Origin: Flavobacteriales bacterium
Lineage (GTDB): Bacteria; Bacteroidota; Bacteroidia; Flavobacteriales_D; Crocinitomicaceae
NCBI GenBank assembly: GCA_947500875.1
Contig: CANMUN010000008.1
Coordinates: 1-64,000 of the forward strand
Direction: 5' to 3'
DNA: 64,000 nt
How positions within the stretch are numbered: position 1 is the stretch's first letter; every line of letters begins with the position of its first letter. The notes beneath the pieces are model-generated. The model saw only the letters and a list, made by a program, of their open reading frames with translations, did no database searches and was not told where the DNA came from. Shown piece by piece: positions 1-64,000 of the stretch. The position numbers were made by a program, and so were the translations under genes.

Positions 1-3000
1 ATTCAACGAAGGCGTTGTATAGTTTTGAGCCTGTCCAATCGTTGCTCCTCCGGCAGGTACTGTATACCAGTTCGCATTGGCAGAAGCGTTAATGGTCGCT
101 GTCTGACCAGCACAAATCGAAGGGTTATTTGCCGATGGAGCGGCTGGAAGGGCATTCACTGTGATATTTACAGGTACTAAATTAGATGAACACCCATTGG
201 AGGTCGCTTGTACATAATACGTCGTATTTGAATTCAATCCAGGAGTAGTAAAGGAAGCGTTGGATCCTACTTGACCCGTTCCATTTGCGTTGGTAAACCA
301 TGCATATCCGTTAGGACTACCGCTTGCGGTCAAAGTTGTTGTACTGCTTCCGTTGGAACAAACCGTGGTATTACCGGAAACTGAGGGTGAGGCCAATGGA
401 TTGACCGTAACTTGAACGGGAACCACATTGGAAGTACAAGCGGGAGAGCCCGATTGATAGGATATGGTGAAGTATGCTTGAAATGCAAATCCACAGATAT
501 TGTCGACACTACACGATGAATTAAACGAAAGATTGATGGAACCATTCGCAACCCAATTACTTAAAGTAGCCTGTGAAATATTATAGGTAGCACTTAAAAA
601 CCCTCCGCATTGAGAACCGCCCCATATATTACCTAGAAAACCTGTTTCGCTGTTAACGGATACTGTTTCACTGGGCGAATTAATATCACCCCTGACATAA
701 ACCGTCAGTGTCGCACCAGAGGATGCCGCTGGGGTTGAAGGAACCACAAAATTTGCTGCACCACAATTGTTATAAACCGATTGTGTAGCCGAAGTATGGC
801 TAAAATTAGAGACTCCTCCACCCGTAATCGATGCCACATAGTACGTAGTATTGTTATTCAAAGCTGGAGTAGTGAAATTTGCGCTATTACCTACTTGACC
901 GGTCGCATTAGCGTTGCTGAACCATGCGTACCCGTTGGCTCCTGAGGCGGTTAATGTCACAGGAGAACCGCAACTTGTATTGGCATTTTGAGCAGAGGGA
1001 ACGGCAGCATTTGGGGCAGCAGTAATCGGTACTAATTGAGAAGCGCACGCGCCTGTACCTGCTTGCACATAAACGGTTACTGGAGCATAAATCGCCTGCC
1101 CAGAAGTGTAGGAGTTACCCGTACCAATCTGACCTGAACCGTTGGCATTGCTGAACCAGTAAATCGGTGAATTAGCGCTTGCGGTGAGGGTTGCGGTAGC
1201 ACCACAATTCACCGATGAATTATTGACGGATGGAGCTTGTGCCTGAGGCACTGAAACCGTGACTGGTACCAATTGAGAAGCGCACGCACCTGTTCCAGCT
1301 TGCAAATAATAGGTTGTATTGGCAGTTAGTACTGGAGTAGTATACGAGGCCCCTGTGCCGACTTGACCTGATCCATTGGCATTGCTAAACCAATACAGCG
1401 GTGAATTGTTGGCTCCCGCATTCAAGGTGGTTGCCGTTTGGCAGTTGGTAGATACGTTGTTGGCGCTCGGCGCTTGTGCCTGAGGCACTGAAACCGTGAC
1501 GGGTACCAATTGAGAAGCACACGCACCAGTTCCAGCTTGCAAATAATAGGTTGTATTGGCAGTTAGTACCGGAGTAGTATACGAGGCCCCTGTACCGACT
1601 TGACCCGATCCATTGGCATTGCTAAACCAGTATAGCGGTGAATTATTGGCTCCAGCATTCAAGGTGGTTGCCGTTTGGCAGTTGATAGATACGTTGCTGG
1701 CGCTTGGTGCTTGAGCCGCAGAAACCGTTACTGTTACGGGTACCAATTGAGATGCGCACCCTCCAGTTCCAGCTTGCATATAGTACGTTGTATTGGCAGT
1801 TAGCGCAGGAGTAGTATAATTGGCTCCAGCGGCTAATTGTCCGGAACCGTTGGCATTAGCGAACCATGTTATAGGTGAGCTTGAAGATCCGCTGATGGTA
1901 GCTGCAGATTGGCAATTCACCGTTAGATTAGCGGCAGACGGGGCTTGAGCTTGGTTAACAGTCACCAAAACAGGTACCAACGGTGAAATACACGGTTGGT
2001 TTTGATAGGTTACCGTTACGCGTGCAAATTGCCCCGAAAGAGCACCGTTCCCATTAAAAAGGCCAAGACAATCGTTGTAATTAAACCTGAATTGATTAGC
2101 TCCTCCTACAACATACTGATTCCCAGGGAAATTTAATGTAAAAATTCCATTATTTGTACCACTACAATTGCAATGTGCATTTGGAGTAATGGAAGAACCG
2201 TTATTGTTATTAAGAAGGGTTTGTAAAGAACCGTTAGAACATTTTACCCCAAAACTTAACTGGATTTGAACATTGGTGACTACTGTGCCTGCGGGTAAAT
2301 TATCGTTCCAATTAAACCCACGTAAACCACCACCGCAATTATAAAACGATCCTGCCCCACACGATGAACCCATATTGAAAAGCTGTGCGGTTGATGTAAT
2401 TGCATATACTTGAGTAGAGCTTTGAGCAGCAGCGCTTGCTCCACCAACATAGTAAGTCGTATTGGAATTCAACACGGGGGTGGTAAAGTTTGCAGCGTTC
2501 CCCACTTGGTTAGTACCTGCAGCATTCGAATACCACACATACGAATTGGCTCCTGAAGCCGTAAGTGTTGCCGTTGTAGCACAATTGGTAGATACGTTGG
2601 AAGCCGATGGTTGTTGTACGTTTGGAGCTGCCGTCACAGGAACAATTTGTGACGCACAAGCACCTGCCCCGGCTTGTAGGTAATAGGTTACTGGAGCATA
2701 AATTTGAGGCGTAGTGTAGGAATTACCCGAACCAATTTGTCCGGTTCCGTTGGCGTTACTGTACCAAATTATTGGGGCATTGGAACTTGCGGTTAACGTG
2801 GTTGTTGATCCACAATTCACCGAAGCATTATTCACTGACGGATTGCTTGCAGGGTTAACCGTAACTGTTACGGGAACAAGCTGTGAGGCACAAGCTCCTG
2901 TGCCCGCTTGAATGTAATAGGTCGTATTGGACGTAAGGACAGGGGTCGTGTAGTTAACTCCTGTTCCAACCTGACCCGTTCCATTGGCGTTGCTGAACCA

Positions 3001-6000
3001 ATAGAGCGGAGAATTATTGGCTGCTGTGCTCAAATTGGCCGTTGACTGACAGTTGATACTTACATTATTAGCTGAAACCTGCGCCTGAGATACGGTTACC
3101 GTAACAGGCACCAATTGGGATGCGCATGCACCTGATCCAGCTTGTAAATAATAGGTTGTATTGGAAGTCAGGATCGGGGTACTGTAAGATCCTCCTGTAC
3201 CGATTTGACCCGATCCATTGGCATTCGAATACCAAACAATCGCGGAGTTGGAACTTGCAGAAAGGGTGGCAGTAGTTTGACAGTTAATGGTTGTATTACT
3301 TACCGAAGGATTACTTGCCGCCGTAACGGTAAGGGTTACAGGAACCAAAGAAGAAAGACAAGGCGTATTCGACCATGTGATTTTCACAACACCGTTACCA
3401 GCGTTTCCGTTCATATTACCTCCAGCTGGGTTCGGCATAGAAGCATTTCCTGCAATGGTAGAACCGTTCGTTACTCCTCCGATGTACGAAGAACCGCCGC
3501 CGCCTCCATCGTCTCCATAGGCAGCGCCTCCACCGTAATAACCACCGCCGCCGCCACCGCCATCGCCGGTTTTGTGACCGCCTTGACCCAGGGACCCTGG
3601 ATTACTTCCAGCGCCTCCTGCGGCTTGCGTTCCTCCAAGTCCGCTACCGTTGATCCCAACCAAACCGCCGCCGGCACCCGCTTGAATTGAATTTCCACCG
3701 CCGCCGCCGCCGCCCGCAACTATTACTCGGTCGTTGAGTGAGTTTCCTCCGATTCTCACGTCAGTAGCGCCTCCACCTCCACCAGAGCAACCTGCATTTC
3801 CTGCATTACCCCCTCCGTTCCATCCTCCTCCAGAAGCAGCGTTACAACCAACACCCTGACCTCCGACATATACGTTAATCACTTGACCAGACGTCAACGA
3901 CACCTGACCTGTAGCATACCCTCCGTTGGCTCCGGGTAAACCATCATTTCCTCCGCGTGCGCCCCAAACTTCGAGGGTATACGAACCTGTGAAAGGGGCT
4001 GTAAACGTTTGGACGTTTCCTGTGAAATTAAACGTTTGCGAGTTGCCTGCTCCAATCGCAGTTGAAGATGCTAAATAATAAGTTGTAGTTGCGCCCAGTA
4101 CGGGTGGCGTAAAAGTGGCACCTGTACCCACTTGACCGGTACCGTTCGCATTGGAAAACCACGTGTACCCGGTACCGTTACCTCCCTGTGCATTAAGCGC
4201 TGCTGTTTGACCGCAATTGACGGTTGCACCTGTGCCGGAAGGAGCAGCAAGGGCATTGACGGTTACAGTAACAGGAACAATTTGCGATGCGCAGCCAGCG
4301 GAGCCCGCCTGAACATAAAACGTAGTGTTTTGTGACAAGAGTGTCGTTGTGTAATTTGACCCCGTACCCAATTGTCCTGTACCGTTGGAATTGCTGTACC
4401 ATGTAAGTCCCCCGTTGGAACTGGCGCTTAAAGAGGCGGTCTGACCGCAATTAATGGACACGTTGTTCGCTATAGGCGTTGAAGGAGCATTGGCCGTTAC
4501 TGTAACAGGAGTAAGGGCAGAAACGCACCCTGATACCGTTTGATTGACGTAGTAGGTGGTGCTGGAATTGAGCACTGGAGTCGTGTAATTGGCTCCAGTA
4601 GCAAGTTGCCCTGTGGCATTGCTGTTCGCATACCACGTAATGGAACCGTTTCCAGAGGCCGTTAATGCGGCCGTTTGTCCGCAAAAAATGGATACCGGAT
4701 TTGCCGTTGGTGCAGCCGGAGCGCCTGATACGGTAACCGTGGTTGATGCGCAACCGTTGCTGAAATAACCGTTAGCATAATTTCTACAGAAATAGGTGGT
4801 GGTACTGTTTGGATTCACGTTAATGCTCGTTCCAGTTCCTATAAACGTTGAGCCACAACCTCCCGTGTACCAATAAATGGTTCCGATTGGATTAGAGGCG
4901 GTTAAGGTAACGGTTTGACCTGGGTTACAAACCGGATTTACATTGCTGTTAGCCGCGCTTGGGTCAGCTGGCACATCGATATAATTGACGTATACGTACA
5001 AATAGTTTCTACGTTGGTAAGAGGTATTACAACAACAAGCAGAACCCCATGTGCGGTAACCTCTCCACCAAAACGTCATGGTTCCTCCACCCCAGTTGCC
5101 GTTGTTGTTGGTGTAGGTAGGTGTGTTTACATTATAAGTTCCGCCATTACCTGCTCCTTGAAATTGTCCCTGGTAAGCAGCATTTAAACCGATTTGGGAT
5201 CGGCCTTCGGACATCCAACCTCCCCCTGTGGCCGTCACCTGCCATTGGGCATACCAACCGGTGATGGTTCCTGCGGGCACATTCACGCCCACGGTGTAAC
5301 TGCAACCGTAATTATACCGCTCAAAAGGATAAATTCCTCCTTGATAGCTGGAGGCGGTTGGATCAACTACTACAGGGAAAACCCGTGCATCATCCAAAAT
5401 CCATGACGCTGGAACAACCGTGGTTAGATGCAATTCATTTCCAGTGATTTGGTAAACGTATTCCCCCAAGATTGGGCGTGTCGTTTTACCGTATTTCTCG
5501 GATAGGTAGGTTTGATCATAACAAATAGGAAGGTTGAAAAGCACTAAATCCTCGCCATTTGCATCGCGCAACGTTAACTCTCCCTTGAATCCAAAAAGTC
5601 CGTTTTCGCCCACCCCTTCAACGATGCTTGCACCGCTTGGTATTTGATAAACTTCCGTAAAATGCACGAACTGATCTTGGGTGAGCCACGAGGGCTTGCT
5701 GTTGAATACATAATCGGTTTCAACCTCCGATAAATCAAATTTTATCCGACGGTCTGTTCCCTGCCAATAGTTTTGTTGGGTAATGCGGTTGGCCTCCTGG
5801 TCGAAACGAAGGCTGGATAGGTTGCGGTCGGAGGTGCTGTTTACCACATTGCCTGCCTTATCCGTGATTTTGAAGGACGTTTTCTGACCAAACAAAAGCC
5901 TTCCGCCGGATTTATTGTATCCAAAAATGGTGGCACCATCCGAAGGGTTAAAAGAGATAGGAACATCGGTTTTCTCAATGGTGTATATTCCCGTTTTTGC

Positions 6001-6279
6001 AAGCGTCATTTGCTTGTCATAGGTGTGCCATTGGCCTTCATTCCCACGGTAGTGCATTGGGAAATCACTGCTTTGTTTCGTATAAACACCTTCTGAGTTG
6101 AGGTAGGTCTTCGAATACTCATCACGAAGATCTATGATTTCTTCGGAAACCAGTTCAGAATTCGGGTCGCTTTTCACCGTGTAAAGGCCCGATTCCAAAT
6201 GGGGTTTAACGGTTTTTTGGGCATGCCCCATGAAAATCACACAAGAAATAACAAAAAATAAAGATAGCTTTTTAGTCAT
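1..6279 (-). CDS. Giant secreted Ig-repeat (CHU_C-associated) surface protein, C-terminus beyond window
   Basis: An uninterrupted minus-strand frame of 2093 codons starts at ATG 6279 and runs off the left edge, so the stop and any T9SS sorting domain are not visible. It opens with a signal peptide (MTKKLSLFFVIS...GHAQ). Residues about 22-420 form a unique N-terminal region ending in a 'FPVVVDPTASS' motif, then an Asn/Trp-rich part. From about 435 there are roughly 15 Ig-like repeats of ~78 residues with the pattern NC-G-T-L-A...WY/WFSNANGTGQVGTG..YTTP.L..NTTYY.QAG.G.C.S.LVPVTVTV, resembling the Ig-like family found next to CHU_C sorting domains. Three repeats hold inserted guest domains (see separate entries). 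It is presumably exported by the T9SS as an adhesin or surface fibre; cargo status is inference because the C-terminus is missing. The -7 box at 6304-6311 supports the start. Confidence 0.9.
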   Translation of the reverse strand, partial: MTKKLSLFFVISCVIFMGHAQKTVKPHLESGLYTVKSDPNSELVSEEIIDLRDEYSKTYLNSEGVYTKQSSDFPMHYRGNEGQWHTYDKQMTLAKTGIYTIEKTDVPISFNPSDGATIFGYNKSGGRLLFGQKTSFKITDKAGNVVNSTSDRNLSSLRFDQEANRITQQNYWQGTDRRIKFDLSEVETDYVFNSKPSWLTQDQFVHFTEVYQIPSGASIVEGVGENGLFGFKGELTLRDANGEDLVLFNLPICYDQTYLSEKYGKTTRPILGEYVYQITGNELHLTTVVPASWILDDARVFPVVVDPTASSYQGGIYPFERYNYGCSYTVGVNVPAGTITGWYAQWQVTATGGGWMSEGRSQIGLNAAYQGQFQGAGNGGTYNVNTPTYTNNNGNWGGGTMTFWWRGYRTWGSACCCNTSYQRRNYLYVYVNYIDVPADPSAANSNVNPVCNPGQTVTLTASNPIGTIYWYTGGCGSTFIGTGTSINVNPNSTTTYFCRNYANGYFSNGCASTTVTVSGAPAAPTANPVSIFCGQTAALTASGNGSITWYANSNATGQLATGANYTTPVLNSSTTYYVNQTVSGCVSALTPVTVTANAPSTPIANNVSINCGQTASLSASSNGGLTWYSNSNGTGQLGTGSNYTTTLLSQNTTFYVQAGSAGCASQIVPVTVTVNALAAPSGTGATVNCGQTAALNAQGGNGTGYTWFSNANGTGQVGTGATFTPPVLGATTTYYLASSTAIGAGNSQTFNFTGNVQTFTAPFTGSYTLEVWGARGGNDGLPGANGGYATGQVSLTSGQVINVYVGGQGVGCNAASGGGWNGGGNAGNAGCSGGGGGATDVRIGGNSLNDRVIVAGGGGGGGNSIQAGAGGGLVGINGSGLGGTQAAGGAGSNPGSLGQGGHKTGDGGGGGGGYYGGGAAYGDDGGGGGSSYIGGVTNGSTIAGNASMPNPAGGNMNGNAGNGVVKITWSNTPCLSSLVPVTLTVTAASNPSVSNTTINCQTTATLSASSNSAIVWYSNANGSGQIGTGGSYSTPILTSNTTYYLQAGSGACASQLVPVTVTVSQAQVSANNVSINCQSTANLSTAANNSPLYWFSNANGTGQVGTGVNYTTPVLTSNTTYYIQAGTGACASQLVPVTVTVNPASNPSVNNASVNCGSTTTLTASSNAPIIWYSNANGTGQIGSGNSYTTPQIYAPVTYYLQAGAGACASQIVPVTAAPNVQQPSASNVSTNCATTATLTASGANSYVWYSNAAGTNQVGNAANFTTPVLNSNTTYYVGGASAAAQSSTQVYAITSTAQLFNMGSSCGAGSFYNCGGGLRGFNWNDNLPAGTVVTNVQIQLSFGVKCSNGSLQTLLNNNNGSSITPNAHCNCSGTNNGIFTLNFPGNQYVVGGANQFRFNYNDCLGLFNGNGALSGQFARVTVTYQNQPCISPLVPVLVTVNQAQAPSAANLTVNCQSAATISGSSSSPITWFANANGSGQLAAGANYTTPALTANTTYYMQAGTGGCASQLVPVTVTVSAAQAPSASNVSINCQTATTLNAGANNSPLYWFSNANGSGQVGTGASYTTPVLTANTTYYLQAGTGACASQLVPVTVSVPQAQAPSANNVSTNCQTATTLNAGANNSPLYWFSNANGSGQVGTGASYTTPVLTANTTYYLQAGTGACASQLVPVTVSVPQAQAPSVNNSSVNCGATATLTASANSPIYWFSNANGSGQIGTGNSYTSGQAIYAPVTVYVQAGTGACASQLVPITAAPNAAVPSAQNANTSCGSPVTLTASGANGYAWFSNANATGQVGNSANFTTPALNNNTTYYVASITGGGVSNFSHTSATQSVYNNCGAANFVVPSTPAASSGATLTVYVRGDINSPSETVSVNSETGFLGNIWGGSQCGGFLSATYNISQATLSNWVANGSINLSFNSSCSVDNICGFAFQAYFTISYQSGSPACTSNVVPVQVTVNPLASPSVSGNTTVCSNGSSTTTLTASGSPNGYAWFTNANGTGQVGSNASFTTPGLNSNTTYYVQATSNGCSSNLVPVNITVNALPAAPSANNPSICAGQTATINASANANWYTVPAGGATIGQAQNYTTPSLN
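455..840 (-). other. Guest domain 3 inside an Ig repeat: unidentified beta-rich domain
   Basis: About residues 1813-1941 of the giant adhesin. The host repeat is interrupted after TTYYVASITGGG and resumes at PACTSNVVPV. The ~128-residue insert contains NNCGAANFVVP, ATLTVYVRGDI and a CSVDNICGF cysteine pair. It looks like a jelly-roll or CUB-like beta domain, but no family is assigned. Confidence 0.65.
1028..1972 (-). repeat. Tandem 237-bp coding repeats (Ig-like units)
   Basis: Four consecutive units begin at the anchor GGTAC(C/T)AATTGAGA at 1028, 1265, 1502 and 1739, exactly 237 bp (79 codons) apart; the next anchor, at 1973, is 234 bp on. Units 1265-1501 and 1502-1738 differ at about 13 positions over their first ~210 bases by eye. 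They are in-frame Ig-like repeats of the giant adhesin. The near identity suggests recent duplication or gene conversion. Confidence 0.9.
2005..2445 (-). other. Guest domain 2 inside an Ig repeat: unidentified, Cys-rich
   Basis: About residues 1278-1425 of the giant adhesin. The host repeat is interrupted after TTYYVGG and resumes at PCISPLVPV. The ~147-residue insert has several cysteines (SSCGAGSFYNCGGG, VKCSNG, NAHCNCSG, NDCLG) and alternating beta-type hydrophobics. I do not recognise the family. Confidence 0.65.
3365..4072 (-). other. Guest domain 1 inside an Ig repeat: glycine-rich domain
   Basis: About residues 736-971 of the giant adhesin. It lies between the TTTYY strand of one Ig repeat and the C-S-LVPV strand that closes it. 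The insert begins with a beta-rich stretch (QTFTAPFTGSYTLEVWGARG) and continues into poly-glycine tracts (GGGGGG, SGGGGGATDVRIGG) and GGGGGSSYIGG. This resembles the Gly_rich family also seen in ALK-type receptors; the family assignment is from motif memory only. Confidence 0.7.
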
Positions 6280-6311: not shown

Positions 6312-6567
6312 AGGATCTCGAGGGATTATGAACCCTCGAATTGACAAAAACTCGATTTTGTTGAGCATTTAATTGGGTTTGTCGAATAAACCCATTCGAA
6401 GAAAGGTAACGTAGGCAATTGAACATAGTGTAAGTTTAGGTTCCGTAAAATTCTCTCAAAATGACCTTCATACTTTAGTATTGGGGGTGCATTTCTTCGA
6501 AATTTCCGCACCTATACGTAAGACGATTTAAATGGTTTCACTTAGCCTTTAATAATTCACTGCTGAG
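6312..6567. other. Non-coding gap between recJ and the adhesin, with two palindromes
   Basis: No convincing gene is present. There are two perfect hairpins: TCGAGGG/CCCTCGA (6318-6324 and 6333-6339, 8-nt loop) and TGGGTTT/AAACCCA (6374-6380 and 6388-6394, 7-nt loop). Neither has a strong U-run on the minus strand, so a role in ending recJ transcripts is only possible. A 61-codon minus-strand frame here looks accidental. Confidence 0.5.
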
Positions 6568-34155: not shown

Positions 34156-35235
34156 TTACCATTTAACTATTGGAAATTCTTTGGAGGATTGGTTGTTGTG
34201 GAGCACGATGCGGTAAACACCTTGGCTTAGGTGTTCTACATTAATGTTCAAGGCATTCGTATTCAATCCTTGTAAATTCATCACTTGCCGGCCCATGGCA
34301 TCCATGACCTCAACGTAACTTATTTGGGTATTCGATTGAATTTCCACTTCTCCTGAGCTTGGGTTTGGACCAACCTGAACGTCCATGGTAAACTCATCGA
34401 TGGACGCATCGAGTCCTAAGTAATCCTCTTGGTACTCCACTAAATTAATGTTCCCGTTAGTTTCGGTAGCTTTCATTATCCATTCATCTTCTCCGTTGGT
34501 AAACCACTCATATTCTACCCGTTGAATGGGAGGGGCACCAAACCACTGCCCTGCTCCAAAAAAGGTTTGATAAACGGAATCAATTTCATTGATGTCATGA
34601 CGAACTCTTAAGGCAGGAAAGGTGCCTTTCGGAGTAATGATGGTTCCCCAGCCATCCACGAGGGTGGTACGCTGACGGTATTGTTTGATCTTAAAATCGA
34701 TGACTGGATTAAGGTCGATGTAGGTATAGCCTCTTGAGTAGTGTGAATCGTTGTAGTTCAAAGGAAGTTTGTACCGGGTTTCAATGGTGTCTGATTTGAA
34801 CGGAACGCCTTGACCGTTAACGGCAATAGAGTACCCCAAGGAAGTGATGGAATCCGCTGTGCGTTTCGAATATTGGTTCAAATCGCTGAGTTCCACAGGA
34901 AGAAATTGGGATAATTGATCCAAGGGCAGGTCATTGGTAGGGTTAAAATAGGATGCTTGGTAATTGCTCGCGGCAATCGGGCCATAGGTTCCAAAAACCA
35001 AAAAAGAAGCAAAACCAATGGGCTTGAATTCTTTGAGGTATTGGCTGGTTGCAACCAACGAACTATAATCCCACGTAAAATTGGCACCGGTGGACATGAA
35101 ATCCAAATTACCTGCTTGGGCTTGGGAAATGCGAACGGTATCACCCGCCGTTCCGAAATCATTCACCGATAAGGTAAGCTGCGCTTCGGCACTACAACAA
35201 ATCAAAGAAATCAATACGAGTAGTTTAGTTTTCAT
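34156..35235 (-). CDS. Secreted protein with T9SS type A sorting domain
   Basis: 359 residues: signal peptide (MKTKLLVLISLICCSAEAQ), a ~255-residue unknown beta-rich domain (TLSVNDFGTAGDTV...WDYSSLVATSQY...VEYEWFTNGEDEWIMKATE), then a C-terminal Por secretion-system type A domain (VGPNPSSGEVEIQSN, SYVEVMDAMGRQVMNLQG, LSQGVYRIVLHNN, ending IVKW). The sorting domain is removed and the mature protein is released or attached to A-LPS. The function of the main domain is not recognised. It is followed directly by the rnpB promoter. Confidence 0.9.
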   Translation of the reverse strand: MKTKLLVLISLICCSAEAQLTLSVNDFGTAGDTVRISQAQAGNLDFMSTGANFTWDYSSLVATSQYLKEFKPIGFASFLVFGTYGPIAASNYQASYFNPTNDLPLDQLSQFLPVELSDLNQYSKRTADSITSLGYSIAVNGQGVPFKSDTIETRYKLPLNYNDSHYSRGYTYIDLNPVIDFKIKQYRQRTTLVDGWGTIITPKGTFPALRVRHDINEIDSVYQTFFGAGQWFGAPPIQRVEYEWFTNGEDEWIMKATETNGNINLVEYQEDYLGLDASIDEFTMDVQVGPNPSSGEVEIQSNTQISYVEVMDAMGRQVMNLQGLNTNALNINVEHLSQGVYRIVLHNNQSSKEFPIVKW

Positions 35236-50248: not shown

Positions 50249-52903
50249 GTGAAAGCATGGATTTTTCTACTCTGTACGTCGATGTCTTCGGTATTTTTGG
50301 GGCAGAATTATGTGTACAACGGTGATTTTGAATTGGGTGGACCCGGAATAGGCTTCAACGTCAATGGCAATGGTTACACCTTGATCACCCCGCCCTATGC
50401 TGGAACGACTTCTCCGGGAAATTATACGGTTACGGCTCAACCCGAATTGGTGAATACCGCTTTTTTTCTTCCCATCAACGACCATACCTCAGGGACCGGA
50501 AATATGCTAGTCGTGGACGGAGGAACGGTTGGCGGAAATCAGCCTTTTTGGCAAGCGGGAAGCAACGGTGGGGGAGTTTGCGGTTTAACCCCGGGAAACG
50601 ATTACCTCTTAACCTATTGGTTGCATTCTGTTTCTTCAACGGTTACCAATGCGGCTACACAAGCCGATGTTAAGGCTATTTTCAACAATGCATCCAACAT
50701 CCAAGCACTGACTCAACCCACCACCGCTCCGCTTCCTGCCGCGGGATGGCAATCCTACTCGGTACTCTTTACCGCCAATGCGGCATGCGTCAATGTTGCC
50801 TTGTACGACGATAATCTTTCGACGGTTGGGAATGATTTTGCCATCGACGACATTTCCGTTTTACCGCTGGATAATCCGCTATTTGCCGCAGCCTCTACCA
50901 CCCGTCCCAACTGTTCAGACAGCCTGAGCGGTGCGGTTTTTGTTTACCCGAAAGGAGGAGTTCCACCTTACAGTTTTCAGCTCAATGGCCCCGCAGGATT
51001 GCTTAGCAATAATCAGGGGGCTTTTTGGGGACTTGGAAGCGGAACGTACAGCTGTACGGTAAGCGATGTAAACAATCAAACCATTACCCTACTAAACCTC
51101 CAATTGTATCCAAACAATTATTTAGAAGTAACCCCGAATGATACCGTAATATGTTCTAATGCGTCTGTTAACATAACCGTTACTTCTGATCAAAATCCGA
51201 ACTATTCCTGGTCCGCATCTCCTTCCGACCCTGGATTGGTGAACACGAACAATGACAGCATCAACGTTAGTCCAAATCAAACTACGGTCTATACGGTTTC
51301 GACCAATGACCTTAACTTTAACCAGTTATCCAACGGGAATTTTGAGGTAGGAAACACCGGTTTTTACACCGATTTGACCTTGCTCACGCCCTCTAATCCT
51401 ACGGGAATTCAAAGCGCTTATGGCTTAACTCCCAATGCCAACTTTTGGGAGTCCACCTTTGCCGCTTGCGTCGATCATACGCTGGGAAATGGGCTAGGAA
51501 TTATGATGGTCGTGGATGGGGCTGTTTCAGGAAACAACGTGGTATGGCGCCAAAGTGCGGCGGTTGAGCCTCAAAAAAACTACACGTTTGAATACTATGC
51601 ACAATCGGTGGATCCTGTAAACCCTGCTATTTTACAGGTACGAATCAATGGCCTTCCGGTTTCCACAGACACCCTAAGCAATGTCACCTGCGCTTGGCAA
51701 TCCCACTCCGTTGCATGGAATTCGGTAAATGACACCCTGGCAACGATCGAACTGTTCAATTTAAACCAGGCCGGTATTGGAAATGATTTTGCGTTGGACG
51801 ACCTTTCGTTTTTTACCTTGAAATCATGCACCCGTCAAAGTACAGTAAATGTTCATTTAGGCAACGTAGATTTGGGATTAACCTACCCCACTGAATTGTG
51901 TGCGGGCTTTCCCCCAACAACTCCGCAATTGAACCCAGGAATTCCGAGCAATGGAATTTACACGGCCCAACCGCAAGGGTTAAACATCGATCCCCTTACT
52001 GGAATTCTTTCGAGCAACGGAACGATTTCGGGAACCTATGATATCGTTTATTCCAGCAATTTGTGCGGATCCGTGGTAACGGATACCTTCATGCTTCAGG
52101 TACACGCCTTACCCGTTCTGGTAAGTTTAACCGGGGGAGCCTATGATTGTCCGTCTCAAAGTTTTGATTCAGTCCTATTATACTTAACCGCCCAATTTCC
52201 GGTAAATGTCATTTATTCGGTGAACGGAATCATGGACACCCTTTTGGGAACGTCGAATCCCATGTACCTCGGGAGCAATGTTGGGCTGTATACCTTATCG
52301 CAAGCGATCGACATGGAATGTTCCAACCCCCTGAATGGCTCGCTGCTTTTGGACAGCCTATTGGTGCCTCAACAACCGATCGTAGTTGGGGAAAATTCGA
52401 TGTGCCAAAACGAACCCAGCAGCCTCTTAAGTATCAGTAATTTGAATCCCAATGGGGTTGTTTCATGGTATTCAGATTCGCTGCTTATGCAATATTTGGA
52501 GAGCGGTAATGCCTTTTATCCGAGCAACGACAGCAGTGCGACATATTACGCAGTGCAAAGCGTTGCAGGGTGTTCAAGTCCATGGGCTGCTTTCACCGTT
52601 AACCTCGTGCCTTGTAACCTCGTTGTTCCATCGGCTTTTACACCGGACGGCGACGGGGATAACGATGTTTGGGAAATTGTTGGCTTGGATGCTAAATTTC
52701 CTTTGAACCAAGTTCGGGTATTCAACCGTTGGGGGGAATTGATTTTCACCTCACGGGAAGGCGATTATTCTTCTTCACCGTGGAATGGAACATATGGAGG
52801 GAAAGCGCTTCCCAATGGAAGTTATTATTATGTCATCGAAAAAGCGGTTGATGGAAGCATTGAACCGATTAATGGAACCGTAAGCATTCTACGAAAACCA
52901 TGA
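50249..52903 (+). CDS. T9SS type B adhesin with duplicated jelly-roll domain
   Basis: 884 residues, GTG start, signal peptide (MKAWIFLLCTSMSSVFLGQ). Two related jelly-roll domains, ~20-205 and ~350-530, share the pattern NGDFE/NGNFE, MLVVDG/MMVVDG, YWLHSV/YYAQSV, WQSYSV/WQSHSV and GNDFAIDDIS/GNDFALDDLS, i.e. carbohydrate-binding-like folds. Between and after them are PKD/SprB-like stretches (RPNCSDSLSGAV..PPYSFQLNGP). The C-terminal ~85 residues are the type B sorting domain (VVPSAFTPDGDGDNDVWE, VRVFNRWGELIFTS, NGTYGGKALPNGSYYYVI). First gene of a four-gene plus-strand operon with a PorP/SprF partner. Confidence 0.93.
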   Translation: MKAWIFLLCTSMSSVFLGQNYVYNGDFELGGPGIGFNVNGNGYTLITPPYAGTTSPGNYTVTAQPELVNTAFFLPINDHTSGTGNMLVVDGGTVGGNQPFWQAGSNGGGVCGLTPGNDYLLTYWLHSVSSTVTNAATQADVKAIFNNASNIQALTQPTTAPLPAAGWQSYSVLFTANAACVNVALYDDNLSTVGNDFAIDDISVLPLDNPLFAAASTTRPNCSDSLSGAVFVYPKGGVPPYSFQLNGPAGLLSNNQGAFWGLGSGTYSCTVSDVNNQTITLLNLQLYPNNYLEVTPNDTVICSNASVNITVTSDQNPNYSWSASPSDPGLVNTNNDSINVSPNQTTVYTVSTNDLNFNQLSNGNFEVGNTGFYTDLTLLTPSNPTGIQSAYGLTPNANFWESTFAACVDHTLGNGLGIMMVVDGAVSGNNVVWRQSAAVEPQKNYTFEYYAQSVDPVNPAILQVRINGLPVSTDTLSNVTCAWQSHSVAWNSVNDTLATIELFNLNQAGIGNDFALDDLSFFTLKSCTRQSTVNVHLGNVDLGLTYPTELCAGFPPTTPQLNPGIPSNGIYTAQPQGLNIDPLTGILSSNGTISGTYDIVYSSNLCGSVVTDTFMLQVHALPVLVSLTGGAYDCPSQSFDSVLLYLTAQFPVNVIYSVNGIMDTLLGTSNPMYLGSNVGLYTLSQAIDMECSNPLNGSLLLDSLLVPQQPIVVGENSMCQNEPSSLLSISNLNPNGVVSWYSDSLLMQYLESGNAFYPSNDSSATYYAVQSVAGCSSPWAAFTVNLVPCNLVVPSAFTPDGDGDNDVWEIVGLDAKFPLNQVRVFNRWGELIFTSREGDYSSSPWNGTYGGKALPNGSYYYVIEKAVDGSIEPINGTVSILRKP

Positions 52904-57626: not shown

Positions 57627-58955
57627 ATGGAAATGCGCGTACATGTGTTGGTGCTCACTTTTTGTATATGCCAACTATGTTCGGCACAACTTGGTCCGAT
57701 AGATTACGAACCTGCGGGTTATGGCGCTTCGTGGCAATGGACCACCTTCGAAAACGATTTCAATCCGCCCTTAGAAATCATAGCAAATCCCGACCCAAGC
57801 GGGATTAATACCTCCACCACGGTAGCTCGATTTACAGCAAATGTTGCAGGTGCTCCCTGGGCAGGTGTGGAAACCGTTCACGGACAAGGCATAGGAACCT
57901 TTAACCTTACTGCAGCCAATTGTGTGGTAAAAATCATGGTGTACAAACCTGTAATCAGTCCGGTAGGAATTAAGTTTGCAACCCCAGCGGGTGCGTCAAC
58001 CGGAGAGATTTTAGTAAGCAATACCTTAATTAACCAATGGGAAGAGCTCACCTTTGATTTTAGCAACGTGGTAAACGCTCCCTCCTCGAATGGGATTGAC
58101 CAAATCATTATTTTCCCTGATTTTACGCAACGAAGTGATAATCGAATTTGCTTATTTGATCATGTTATTTTATCAAACCAGAACGGGGTCAACCCAATCC
58201 CAATGGGTCCTGCGCCTACCCCAACCTATCCTGAAGCCAATGTGATTTCGTTATTCAGTAACCCCTACCAGAATGTGGCGATTGATACCTGGATGGCCCC
58301 TTGGTCTGTAGCTCAATTAACTAATTTACAGCTTAGTGGAAACGATACGAAACGTTATGACGCCTTGAATTTTGTAGGTATTGAAATGTTAGGAAATAAT
58401 GTTCTCGATGTCACTTCCATGACTCATTTTCGGGTGGATTTTTGGACACCAAACATGACTGAATTCAAGGTCAAATTGGTTGACTTCGGAGGCGACGGTC
58501 AATATGCGGGAGGCGACGATAGCGAAAGCGAATTGAGTTATTCCTTATCGACCGAAGCGTGGCACACCTTAGAAATTCCCTTAAGTTCATTTTCTGGGCT
58601 TGCAGGCATGAACCACCTCTCGCAATTGATTTTCTCCGGAACTCCAAGCGGTTCGGGCACTGTATACATTGATAATGTATTATTTTTCAATAATGAAGGG
58701 GCAAGCATCCTCGAAGAACAAACCAAAAGCATCAAGGCCTTCCCCAATCCAAGTACCGACAACATCTTACTTAGCGCGGAAGATTCACCCATGAATACAA
58801 TTCAAGTCTTTGGACTTGACGGCACCGTATTGATGGAAGATTATCCCCATTCAACACCCCGTACAATCGACCTCTCGAAAATGCCCGCTGGCCTATATTT
58901 AGTTCGTGTTTCTCTAACAAACAGCACGGTAACTTTGCGCATCATCAAAGAATAA
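57627..58955 (+). CDS. Secreted carbohydrate-binding-like protein with T9SS type A sorting domain
   Basis: 442 residues, signal peptide (to QLCSAQ). Two jelly-roll-like regions: ~25-190 (PIDYEPAGYGASWQWTTFEND, WEELTFDFSNVV, RICLFDHVIL) and ~205-355 (NVISLFSNPYQNVAIDTWM, MTHFRVDFWTPNMTEFKVKLVDFG, WHTLEIPLSSFSGL, VYIDNVLFFN), both in the style of domains found with secreted glycoside hydrolases. It ends with a type A sorting domain (IKAFPNPSTDNILL, IQVFGLDGTVLME, MPAGLYLVRVSL). No catalytic hydrolase domain is present. Confidence 0.88.
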   Translation: MEMRVHVLVLTFCICQLCSAQLGPIDYEPAGYGASWQWTTFENDFNPPLEIIANPDPSGINTSTTVARFTANVAGAPWAGVETVHGQGIGTFNLTAANCVVKIMVYKPVISPVGIKFATPAGASTGEILVSNTLINQWEELTFDFSNVVNAPSSNGIDQIIIFPDFTQRSDNRICLFDHVILSNQNGVNPIPMGPAPTPTYPEANVISLFSNPYQNVAIDTWMAPWSVAQLTNLQLSGNDTKRYDALNFVGIEMLGNNVLDVTSMTHFRVDFWTPNMTEFKVKLVDFGGDGQYAGGDDSESELSYSLSTEAWHTLEIPLSSFSGLAGMNHLSQLIFSGTPSGSGTVYIDNVLFFNNEGASILEEQTKSIKAFPNPSTDNILLSAEDSPMNTIQVFGLDGTVLMEDYPHSTPRTIDLSKMPAGLYLVRVSLTNSTVTLRIIKE

Positions 58956-62771: not shown

Positions 62772-62875
62772 ATGACACTTCAACCAAGCATCGGATAAAA
62801 GCCAATTGGAAACAATTCACTTTATTGGTTGTCGTCAGTGCATTTTTGGGTAATGATATTAAATTTAAGGAATAA
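62772..62875 (+). pseudogene. Relic of the 5' end of an MFS transporter gene
   Basis: ATG 62772 opens a frame of eight codons (MTLQPSIG, then TAA). In the frame that starts at 62774, the text RIKANWKQFTLLVVVSAFLG appears and then degenerates to NDIKFKE and a stop at 62873-62875. This stretch matches the start of a Flavobacteriia MFS transporter as I remember it (...KANWKQFTLLVLVNAFVG...). The likely history is a frameshift within the first codons plus a deletion of everything after the first helix, while the -7 box survives. The relic overlaps the end of the minus-strand T9SS gene. Family match is from memory. Confidence 0.45.
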
Positions 62876-64000
62876 TAAATTTAACCATGTACGACTGTCC
62901 GTGTTGAGATAATTGAATAAAATATAAGCCAGACTGACTCAAATAGAATGTTTTTTGCTCAAAACCATCAAGAAATTCCCTGGTTAGTAGTTGACCACAC
63001 GAATTAAATACACTGCAGGTTGTTGTCGTTTCTGATTTATTGACCAATGATATATAATCCATTTCATTTTTAATTAAAATGTCGAACATATCCATTCCAT
63101 GTTCGCTTAATGAAACGGCCCCTACATTACAAAAAACGGTGTCCTGAAAATCATACATGACATTATCTAACGCAAAAGGATAGTGCTGAAGAGGATGTAT
63201 AATCGGATTGTTTTGAAAGGAAAACTCATTAATATCAGTTACTTGCTGATAATTAAGTGCTAAATCATATGATTCACAATGGCCTTGACCATTTTGATCC
63301 AATAAAGAGATACAACTTCCATCTAGATGAGCAGCATAACTCAATGCGATGAGTTCATTTTGGTTCGTTGTGTATAACCCTTGAGCCGGAACCGTTGATA
63401 GCCAAGACTGTGCATTTAAATGGGGCTCAAACCCTTTACACCAGATTAAATTTCCCCCGGCAGCCGAAGGATTAAACTTCAAAACAAATGCCCTACTGGT
63501 TGGATATGCACTAGGATTATATAAGCTACCCGTTACCAATAACTTGTGGTCGGAAGTTTCGAAAAACGAATTAAACTGAATAGATTCTATCGGATTATTA
63601 GAAGAAAATCGCCATTGTTTAGTTAACGATAGGGAGGTGTCCAAGACCCCTAACACCTTAGTTTCATCATAATCCCAGATACCACTATAATCATTTGCAT
63701 ATTCGAAACTTACAAAGTATTGATTTGAAGACTTTAAAATTCTTGAGGGCATAACTTTGTTAAATTGATGATTTTGGTGAACATATTTTAATGCTTTTCG
63801 GAAAGAACCATTGTTATTAGAAACGACCAAATATCCATAATACTGCGTTGTGTCCTGTACTGGCCCTGTGTTTACTCCCCCTGATATGTAACCGTTTGGA
63901 ATGGCATTATCAAGGGTGTAAACATTTGCATTGTACGTGCCATTATTAGAATATTCAAAGGACCATACCACATTTCCAAAGCGATTGATTTTGGTTAACC
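62865..64000 (-). CDS. Secreted protein with T9SS type A sorting domain, N-terminus beyond window
   Basis: The reading frame is open to the right edge (reading ...LTKINRFGNVVWSFEYSNN), so at least 378 residues of C-terminal part are seen; a GTG at 63971 is only an internal codon. The body has propeller-like or delta-60-repeat-like text with repeated aromatic and Gly patterns (GYLVVSNNNGSFRKAL, SFEYANDYSGIWDYDETKVLGVLD, LLVTGSLYNPSAYPTSRAFVLKFNPSAAGGNLIW). It ends with a type A sorting domain: SLVNKSETTTTCSVFNSCGQLLTREFL, YFIQLSQHGQSYMVKFIIP. Confidence 0.85.
   Translation of the reverse strand, partial: LTKINRFGNVVWSFEYSNNGTYNANVYTLDNAIPNGYISGGVNTGPVQDTTQYYGYLVVSNNNGSFRKALKYVHQNHQFNKVMPSRILKSSNQYFVSFEYANDYSGIWDYDETKVLGVLDTSLSLTKQWRFSSNNPIESIQFNSFFETSDHKLLVTGSLYNPSAYPTSRAFVLKFNPSAAGGNLIWCKGFEPHLNAQSWLSTVPAQGLYTTNQNELIALSYAAHLDGSCISLLDQNGQGHCESYDLALNYQQVTDINEFSFQNNPIIHPLQHYPFALDNVMYDFQDTVFCNVGAVSLSEHGMDMFDILIKNEMDYISLVNKSETTTTCSVFNSCGQLLTREFLDGFEQKTFYLSQSGLYFIQLSQHGQSYMVKFIIP

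Follow-up and report, generated by a model that had tools for sequence, protein, structure and literature searches.

Different guest domains occupy the same hairpin of split Ig-like repeats in a putative Bacteroidota adhesin

The window analyzed here, a stretch of 64,000 nucleotides (nt) from a Flavobacteriales genome, encodes at its very beginning a long protein in which three Ig-like repeats are interrupted at one and the same hairpin, each by a different guest domain. We consider it to be a type IX-secreted adhesin built of Ig_7 repeats, whose guests would act as ligand-binding heads, and give this explanation as a whole a probability of roughly 0.74. According to this reading, tandem Ig_7 domains would form the stalk of a type IX-secreted fiber at the cell surface. 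In some of them, the hairpin between strands F and G would have been opened and a complete, separately folding domain inserted. The ends of the guest would lie close together, so that the Ig domain could close with its last strand and the fiber would remain continuous, while the guest would stick out laterally from the stalk. Most likely, the guests serve as ligand-binding heads, which would place several binding specificities along one fiber.

The open reading frame (ORF) runs on the minus strand from base 6426 to base 1 of the window and is open at base 1. This base is also base 1 of contig C8 (the genome comprises 2.5 Mb in 102 contigs); the gene lacks its 3' end because the contig edge cuts the ORF there, and the available translation amounts to 2142 aa. 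The signal-peptide-like Met50 suggests a gene start near position 6279 (Table 1). The first-pass annotation had placed an adhesin at 1-4980; the repeat array is indeed located there, but the gene reaches beyond 4980, to about 6279. The approximately 415 residues ahead of the repeats matched no Pfam family. In the remaining part, the Pfam profile PF19081 (Ig_7) detected 15 stretches (E 5.9e-150, 488 bits, above the curated cut-off), in agreement with the roughly 15 Ig-like repeats reported before. Each repeat has two conserved Cys residues, one at aa 15 near strand B and one at aa 67 at the start of strand G (repeat numbering). A disulfide between the two could lock a split domain shut.

Table 1. 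Features of the repeat adhesin gene (window coordinates)
Feature	Position	Strand	Residues	Remarks
Repeat adhesin gene	1..6279	(-)		probable start Met50 MTKKLSLFFVISCVIFMGHAQ, chosen by inspection; 3' end missing
N-terminal non-repeat region	4969..6216	(-)	71-486	no Pfam match
Array of 15 Ig_7-type repeats, three split	1..4968	(-)		first divergent, last cut
Split host 1, N-terminal part, up to strand F	4075..4257	(-)	724-784	repeat HMM and model
Guest 1	3361..4074	(-)	785-1022 (238 aa)	ALK/LTK-type glycine-rich domain, PF12810
Split host 1, C-terminal part, strand G	3322..3360	(-)	1023-1035	repeat HMM and model
Split host 2, N-terminal part	2449..2622	(-)	1269-1326	repeat HMM and model
Guest 2	1993..2448	(-)	1327-1478 (152 aa)	Cys-rich, predicted CBM35/BcsB-type jelly roll, no Pfam family
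Split host 2, C-terminal part	1954..1992	(-)	1479-1491	repeat HMM and model
Split host 3, N-terminal part	838..1011	(-)	1806-1863	repeat HMM
Guest 3	439..837	(-)	1864-1996 (133 aa)	beta-rich, undescribed family, conserved GD / E / C
Split host 3, C-terminal part	400..438	(-)	1997-2009	repeat HMM

In 3 of the 15 repeats, a guest separates strand F, which carries the TTYY motif, from the closing strand G with its C-x-S-x-VPV motif. When an HMM of the window's intact repeats was used, twelve repeats gave one continuous alignment each, and the other three were aligned as two segments, the second of which picks up the register again (HMM positions 1-66 plus 64-78, 2-70 plus 64-79, and 2-72 ahead of the closing strand). 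In a MAFFT alignment, the intact repeats spanned guests 1 and 2 with a single gap, located exactly at the F-G point. The original observation of three repeats interrupted at the same point and continuing in register is thus confirmed, and the guest boundaries (3361-4074, 1993-2448, and 439-837) are close to those first proposed. The F-G loop is 7-8 aa long in intact repeats (one of 13) and 134 to about 314 aa long in split repeats; one extracted split repeat (own_C2_315) overran to 328.

We extracted 31 complete split repeats from nine proteins of four genomes of the same genus (G000, G001, G006, and G024). Since this extraction required the F-G hairpin by construction, all fetched ORFs were also scanned with an iterated HMM without this condition. 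Of 53 N-anchored partial matches, 48 stopped at positions 59-68, a few of these being divergent intact repeats and not splits; in the numbering of this HMM, TTYY corresponds to positions 53-57 and the Cys to position 65. Of the remaining five, three were due to contig ends and two were weak. An insertion elsewhere would show up as a repeat match longer than 100 aa, and none was found among the scanned ORFs. Insertions at other Ig loops were considered as well, and the breakpoint scan revealed none, the other endings being contig ends or weak matches. Chance or misalignment of the repeats was ruled out by the register, the one-gap alignment, and the breakpoint scan.

To see how the host halves would pack, two units, each consisting of an intact, a split, and an intact repeat, were modeled with AlphaFold2 from the window sequence and related loci. 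The underlying alignments were shallow (16 and 11 sequences). Model A, which contains guest 2, had a mean pLDDT of 87.6, with strand F at 133-140, the closing strand at 294-301, and the guest between them. Model B, which contains guest 1, had a mean pLDDT of 77.6; low confidence was limited to the glycine-rich guest, parts of which were below 50. The host blocks of both models mostly had a pLDDT of 80-96. In structural alignments, each model matched Ig domains of GhpA over 213-233 residues, several of these hits being a single uninterrupted stretch of three domains, and titin I9-I11 over 209-216 residues; in both cases, the alignment spanned the guest. With no more than about 226-230 residues outside the guest, matches of this length require that, in the models, the halves of the split repeat make up a single Ig domain. 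Packing was judged by these structural alignments and the strand assignment, not from measured coordinates. For hosts 1 and 2, the halves are thus predicted to join into one Ig domain from whose F-G hairpin the guest emerges, and host 3, which shares 66% sequence identity with host 2, probably closes in the same way. A split Ig-like domain projecting another domain is present in both predicted models and in the alignment.

These models bear on the simplest alternative, that the flanking halves are separate domains and the guest is just the next domain in the chain. In its favor, the closing strand comprises just 13 aa and has a weak score when taken alone. This alternative conflicts, however, with the register of the halves, with the one-gap alignment to intact repeats, and with both AlphaFold2 models, and we regard it as highly improbable. 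The packing of the halves as one Ig domain, proposed as a check in the first-pass annotation, was obtained for two of the three split repeats, and neither model placed the halves in separate domains.

Guest 1 matched PF12810 (ALK_LTK_GRD) with an E value of 9.8e-27 (94.9 bits). Its model aligned to structures of the ALK/LTK glycine-rich domain (GRD; 7nwz, 7nx1, and 7lrz) with Z scores of 12.5-13.6 and approximately 28-32% identity over about 180 residues, indicating a shared fold. In ALK and LTK, the GRD is part of an animal receptor kinase, whereas guest 1 occupies the hairpin of an Ig domain in a putative surface protein of a bacterium. Guest 2 had no Pfam family match by sequence. Its model resembled the BcsB binding domain and the binding modules of Xyn30D, GH86 agarase, and CITase (Z 8.9-10, rmsd 2.7-3.5), with which it appears to share a jelly roll; in contrast to those modules, it is Cys-rich and without a sequence family match. 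The predicted fold of guest 2 is therefore carbohydrate-binding-module-like, although a shared fold is no proof of sugar binding. For guest 3, nothing significant was found by sequence in Pfam or among solved structures, whereas relatives are present in other genera (G132, G203, G119, and G076).

All three guest families also occur free-standing, partly right behind a signal peptide. The guest 2 domain directly follows the signal peptide in G099, GRDs do so in several genomes, including the genome of the window (contig C87), and guest 3 forms a tandem N-terminal pair in G076 and is also found within other proteins. By analogy with the split domains of RTX adhesins (see below), ligand binding and adhesion by the guests seem plausible. 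The display role put forward in the first-pass annotation we likewise infer; the fold of guest 2 and the free-standing copies fit it. Alternatively, within the same architecture, the guests could be spacers, stabilizers, or ion binders that stiffen, widen, or space the fiber. A compact glycine-rich fold such as the GRD could have a structural function. Against a spacer function, the guest family varies while the slot stays constant, these domains are also found on their own immediately after signal peptides, where heads would be expected, and guest 2 resembles carbohydrate-binding modules. We therefore judge spacer guests unlikely.

The same hairpin is used in other proteins. Of two paralogs encoded elsewhere in this genome, one carries two guests there and the other four. 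Split repeats were also found in additional genomes of the genus and, beyond it, in G203, which represents a different genus of the family, and in G031 and G034 from other families of the order; in the latter two, the guest is of yet another type. Homologs without a conserved insertion point, the outcome that would have spoken against the first-pass annotation, were not encountered. At least seven guest types can be separated by sequence (GRD, guest 2, guest 3, own-C17_622, C226_84, C168_444, and DNxIGxGGYF types), some of which may have a fold in common. GRDs are rare in the phylum (5 of 395 genomes at E ≤ 1e-10), and several of them are not inserted in Ig_7, suggesting that the use of GRDs as guests is for the most part peculiar to this genus. 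A search of the open-licence literature yielded nothing relevant on bacterial GRDs or Ig_7 insertions. Another GRD-encoding ORF was noticed in the window's genome near a contig end (contig C32, 26747-27364; L039). In a genome of another family (G606, contig C1, 1956511-1988881), six GRD proteins are encoded within about 32 kb (L154, L157, and L159-L162); those looked at have the GRD at the C-terminal end, outside Ig_7. This group is possibly a variable surface gene cluster.

Comparison of hosts and guests shows that their histories are separate. In G001_C168, the N-terminal parts of two hosts are 88% identical, and their guests are unrelated (23%). Similarly, hosts 2 and 3 of the window are 66% identical and the repeats preceding them 74% identical, with unrelated guests. 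The opposite situation was found in G006_C11, where hosts that are 59% identical contain guests that are 96% identical. At the DNA level, identity of this pair is 53-64% outside and approximately 90% inside the guest, with a sharp change at both host-guest junctions; gene conversion between the guests would explain this pair as well as transfer. For the split repeat C17_1306 of the window's genome, the nearest host is that of C226_1606 (72%), and the nearest guest is that of G006_1235 (80%). Among the GRD guests, host and guest distances were only weakly correlated (Mantel r 0.27, n = 20, one ortholog set left out), and the nearest neighbors of host and guest agreed in 0 of 20 cases, a comparison that is noisy since the hosts are short. 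Orthologs keep their pairing: guest 2 of the window and its counterpart in G001_C153 are 87% identical in hosts that are 83-86% identical, and host and guest have also been kept together in the orthologs C226 and G024_C1.

The one-Ig models, the unrelated guests in similar hosts, and the near-identical guests in dissimilar hosts together support the exchangeable site on a scaffold that had been proposed from the window. We lean slightly toward a broader view, in which the Ig_7 F-G hairpin would be a general docking slot of Bacteroidota, with unrelated binding domains swapped as cassettes between repeats, paralogs, and species. The products would be combinatorial adhesins, and the slot would correspond to the CDR3 position of antibodies.

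Evidence for the secretion route comes from the genome and from relatives. The genome of the window encodes the type IX translocon protein SprA and has 89 type IX tail matches, more than 70 of them above the cut-off. The C17 paralog with four guests ends in the type IX tail PF18962 (E 1.7e-11), which, like CHU_C, was taken as a mark of type IX cargo. A complete relative of 2574 aa in G099 contains a signal peptide, a free guest 2 domain, and several split repeats with guests, and its tail resembles a type IX signal by eye. The window protein, whose C-terminal end is cut off by the contig edge, is thus probably secreted by the type IX system and, as we infer, located at the cell surface.

Split Ig-like domains of RTX adhesins were reportedly treated by Graham et al. 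in 2024. In the RTX adhesins AhLap, FrhA, and MpIBP, discontinuous Ig-like domains project ligand-binding domains from the fiber axis (PMC12077191, PMC10865825). These guests comprise a carbohydrate-binding module, a peptide-binding domain, and a beta-roll, with several kinds per protein, and they bind fucosylated glycans and cells (PMC12077191, PMC10865825). The statement of the first-pass annotation that no system with such a layout had been described was thus wrong in principle, since binding domains displayed on split Ig-like domains were already known from RTX adhesins. Both systems have a fiber of Ig-like repeats and discontinuous Ig-like domains that carry several different guests. However, RTX adhesins are type I-secreted, whereas proteins of the window type are probably type IX-secreted, as judged by the paralog. 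We defined RTX adhesins by RTX nonapeptide repeats plus a type I secretion signal, and no RTX family match was detected by Pfam in the available 2142 aa, the 3' end being beyond the contig edge. The guest of FrhA comes directly after the first strand of its split domain (PMC10865825), an arrangement that differs from the window protein, where the guests precede the last strand. Furthermore, unlike in RTX adhesins, the stalk repeats and the split host are members of one family, the insertion site is common to paralogs and genera, and the histories of host and guest are separate. Known before is, in short, the principle of display on split Ig-like domains; new are the phylum, the secretion system (by the paralog), the position of the guest before the last strand, the stalk repeat as host, and a fixed-site exchange documented by sequence.

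The closest solved relative of the stalk is GhpA of Aureispira, a type IX-secreted protein (PMC11205867) with solved structures (PDB 9flp, 9fls, 9g8b, and others). It gave the top whole-model structural matches (Z about 12), and no other protein of solved structure was clearly related in sequence (phmmer E 4.4e-14 for GhpA). Like the window protein, it belongs to Bacteroidota and has a long stack of Ig-like repeats. These likenesses, including the shared secretion route, could be taken to mean that the window protein forms a grappling-hook-like fiber that catches prey or neighboring cells. We consider this quite improbable, as the likeness is confined to Ig repeats, and such repeats occur commonly in the order. 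Moreover, several aligned stretches of GhpA are contiguous and lack guests. A GhpA-like hook would be defined by a heptameric assembly; the relationship found is one at the repeat level.

A design that was previously described for RTX adhesins of Gram-negative bacteria recurs in a phylum with another secretion system, and its guest is placed toward the other end of the Ig fold, which points to a second origin. The sequence rule TTYY ... C-x-S-x-VPV can be used to find further binding domains in Bacteroidota surface proteins of very large size; its value is illustrated by guests 2 and 3, which match no Pfam family. Modular exchange would make it testable how adhesins shift their specificity and yet keep the fiber, and the F-G slot could serve as a trial display scaffold.

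The window contains a second Ig_7 protein at 50249-52903 (+), with a SprB-like repeat (below the cut-off), one intact Ig_7 domain, and a CHU_C type IX signal. Proteins with type IX tails are also encoded at 34156-35235 (-), 57627-58955 (+), and 62865-63971 (-; below the cut-off). On contig C17 of the same genome, a 1580-aa ORF (L038) adjoining the paralog with four guests codes for a further protein of Ig_7-like repeats that has a type IX tail. The named relatives are metagenome-assembled genomes (MAGs) from a pond and from Lake Erken, labeled Cryomorphaceae or Flavobacteriales. A public MAG labeled Chryseobacterium gleum (locus L152, CAMCWF010000011.1) corresponds to G205, a genome that our searches assign to the genus of the window; its label appears doubtful.
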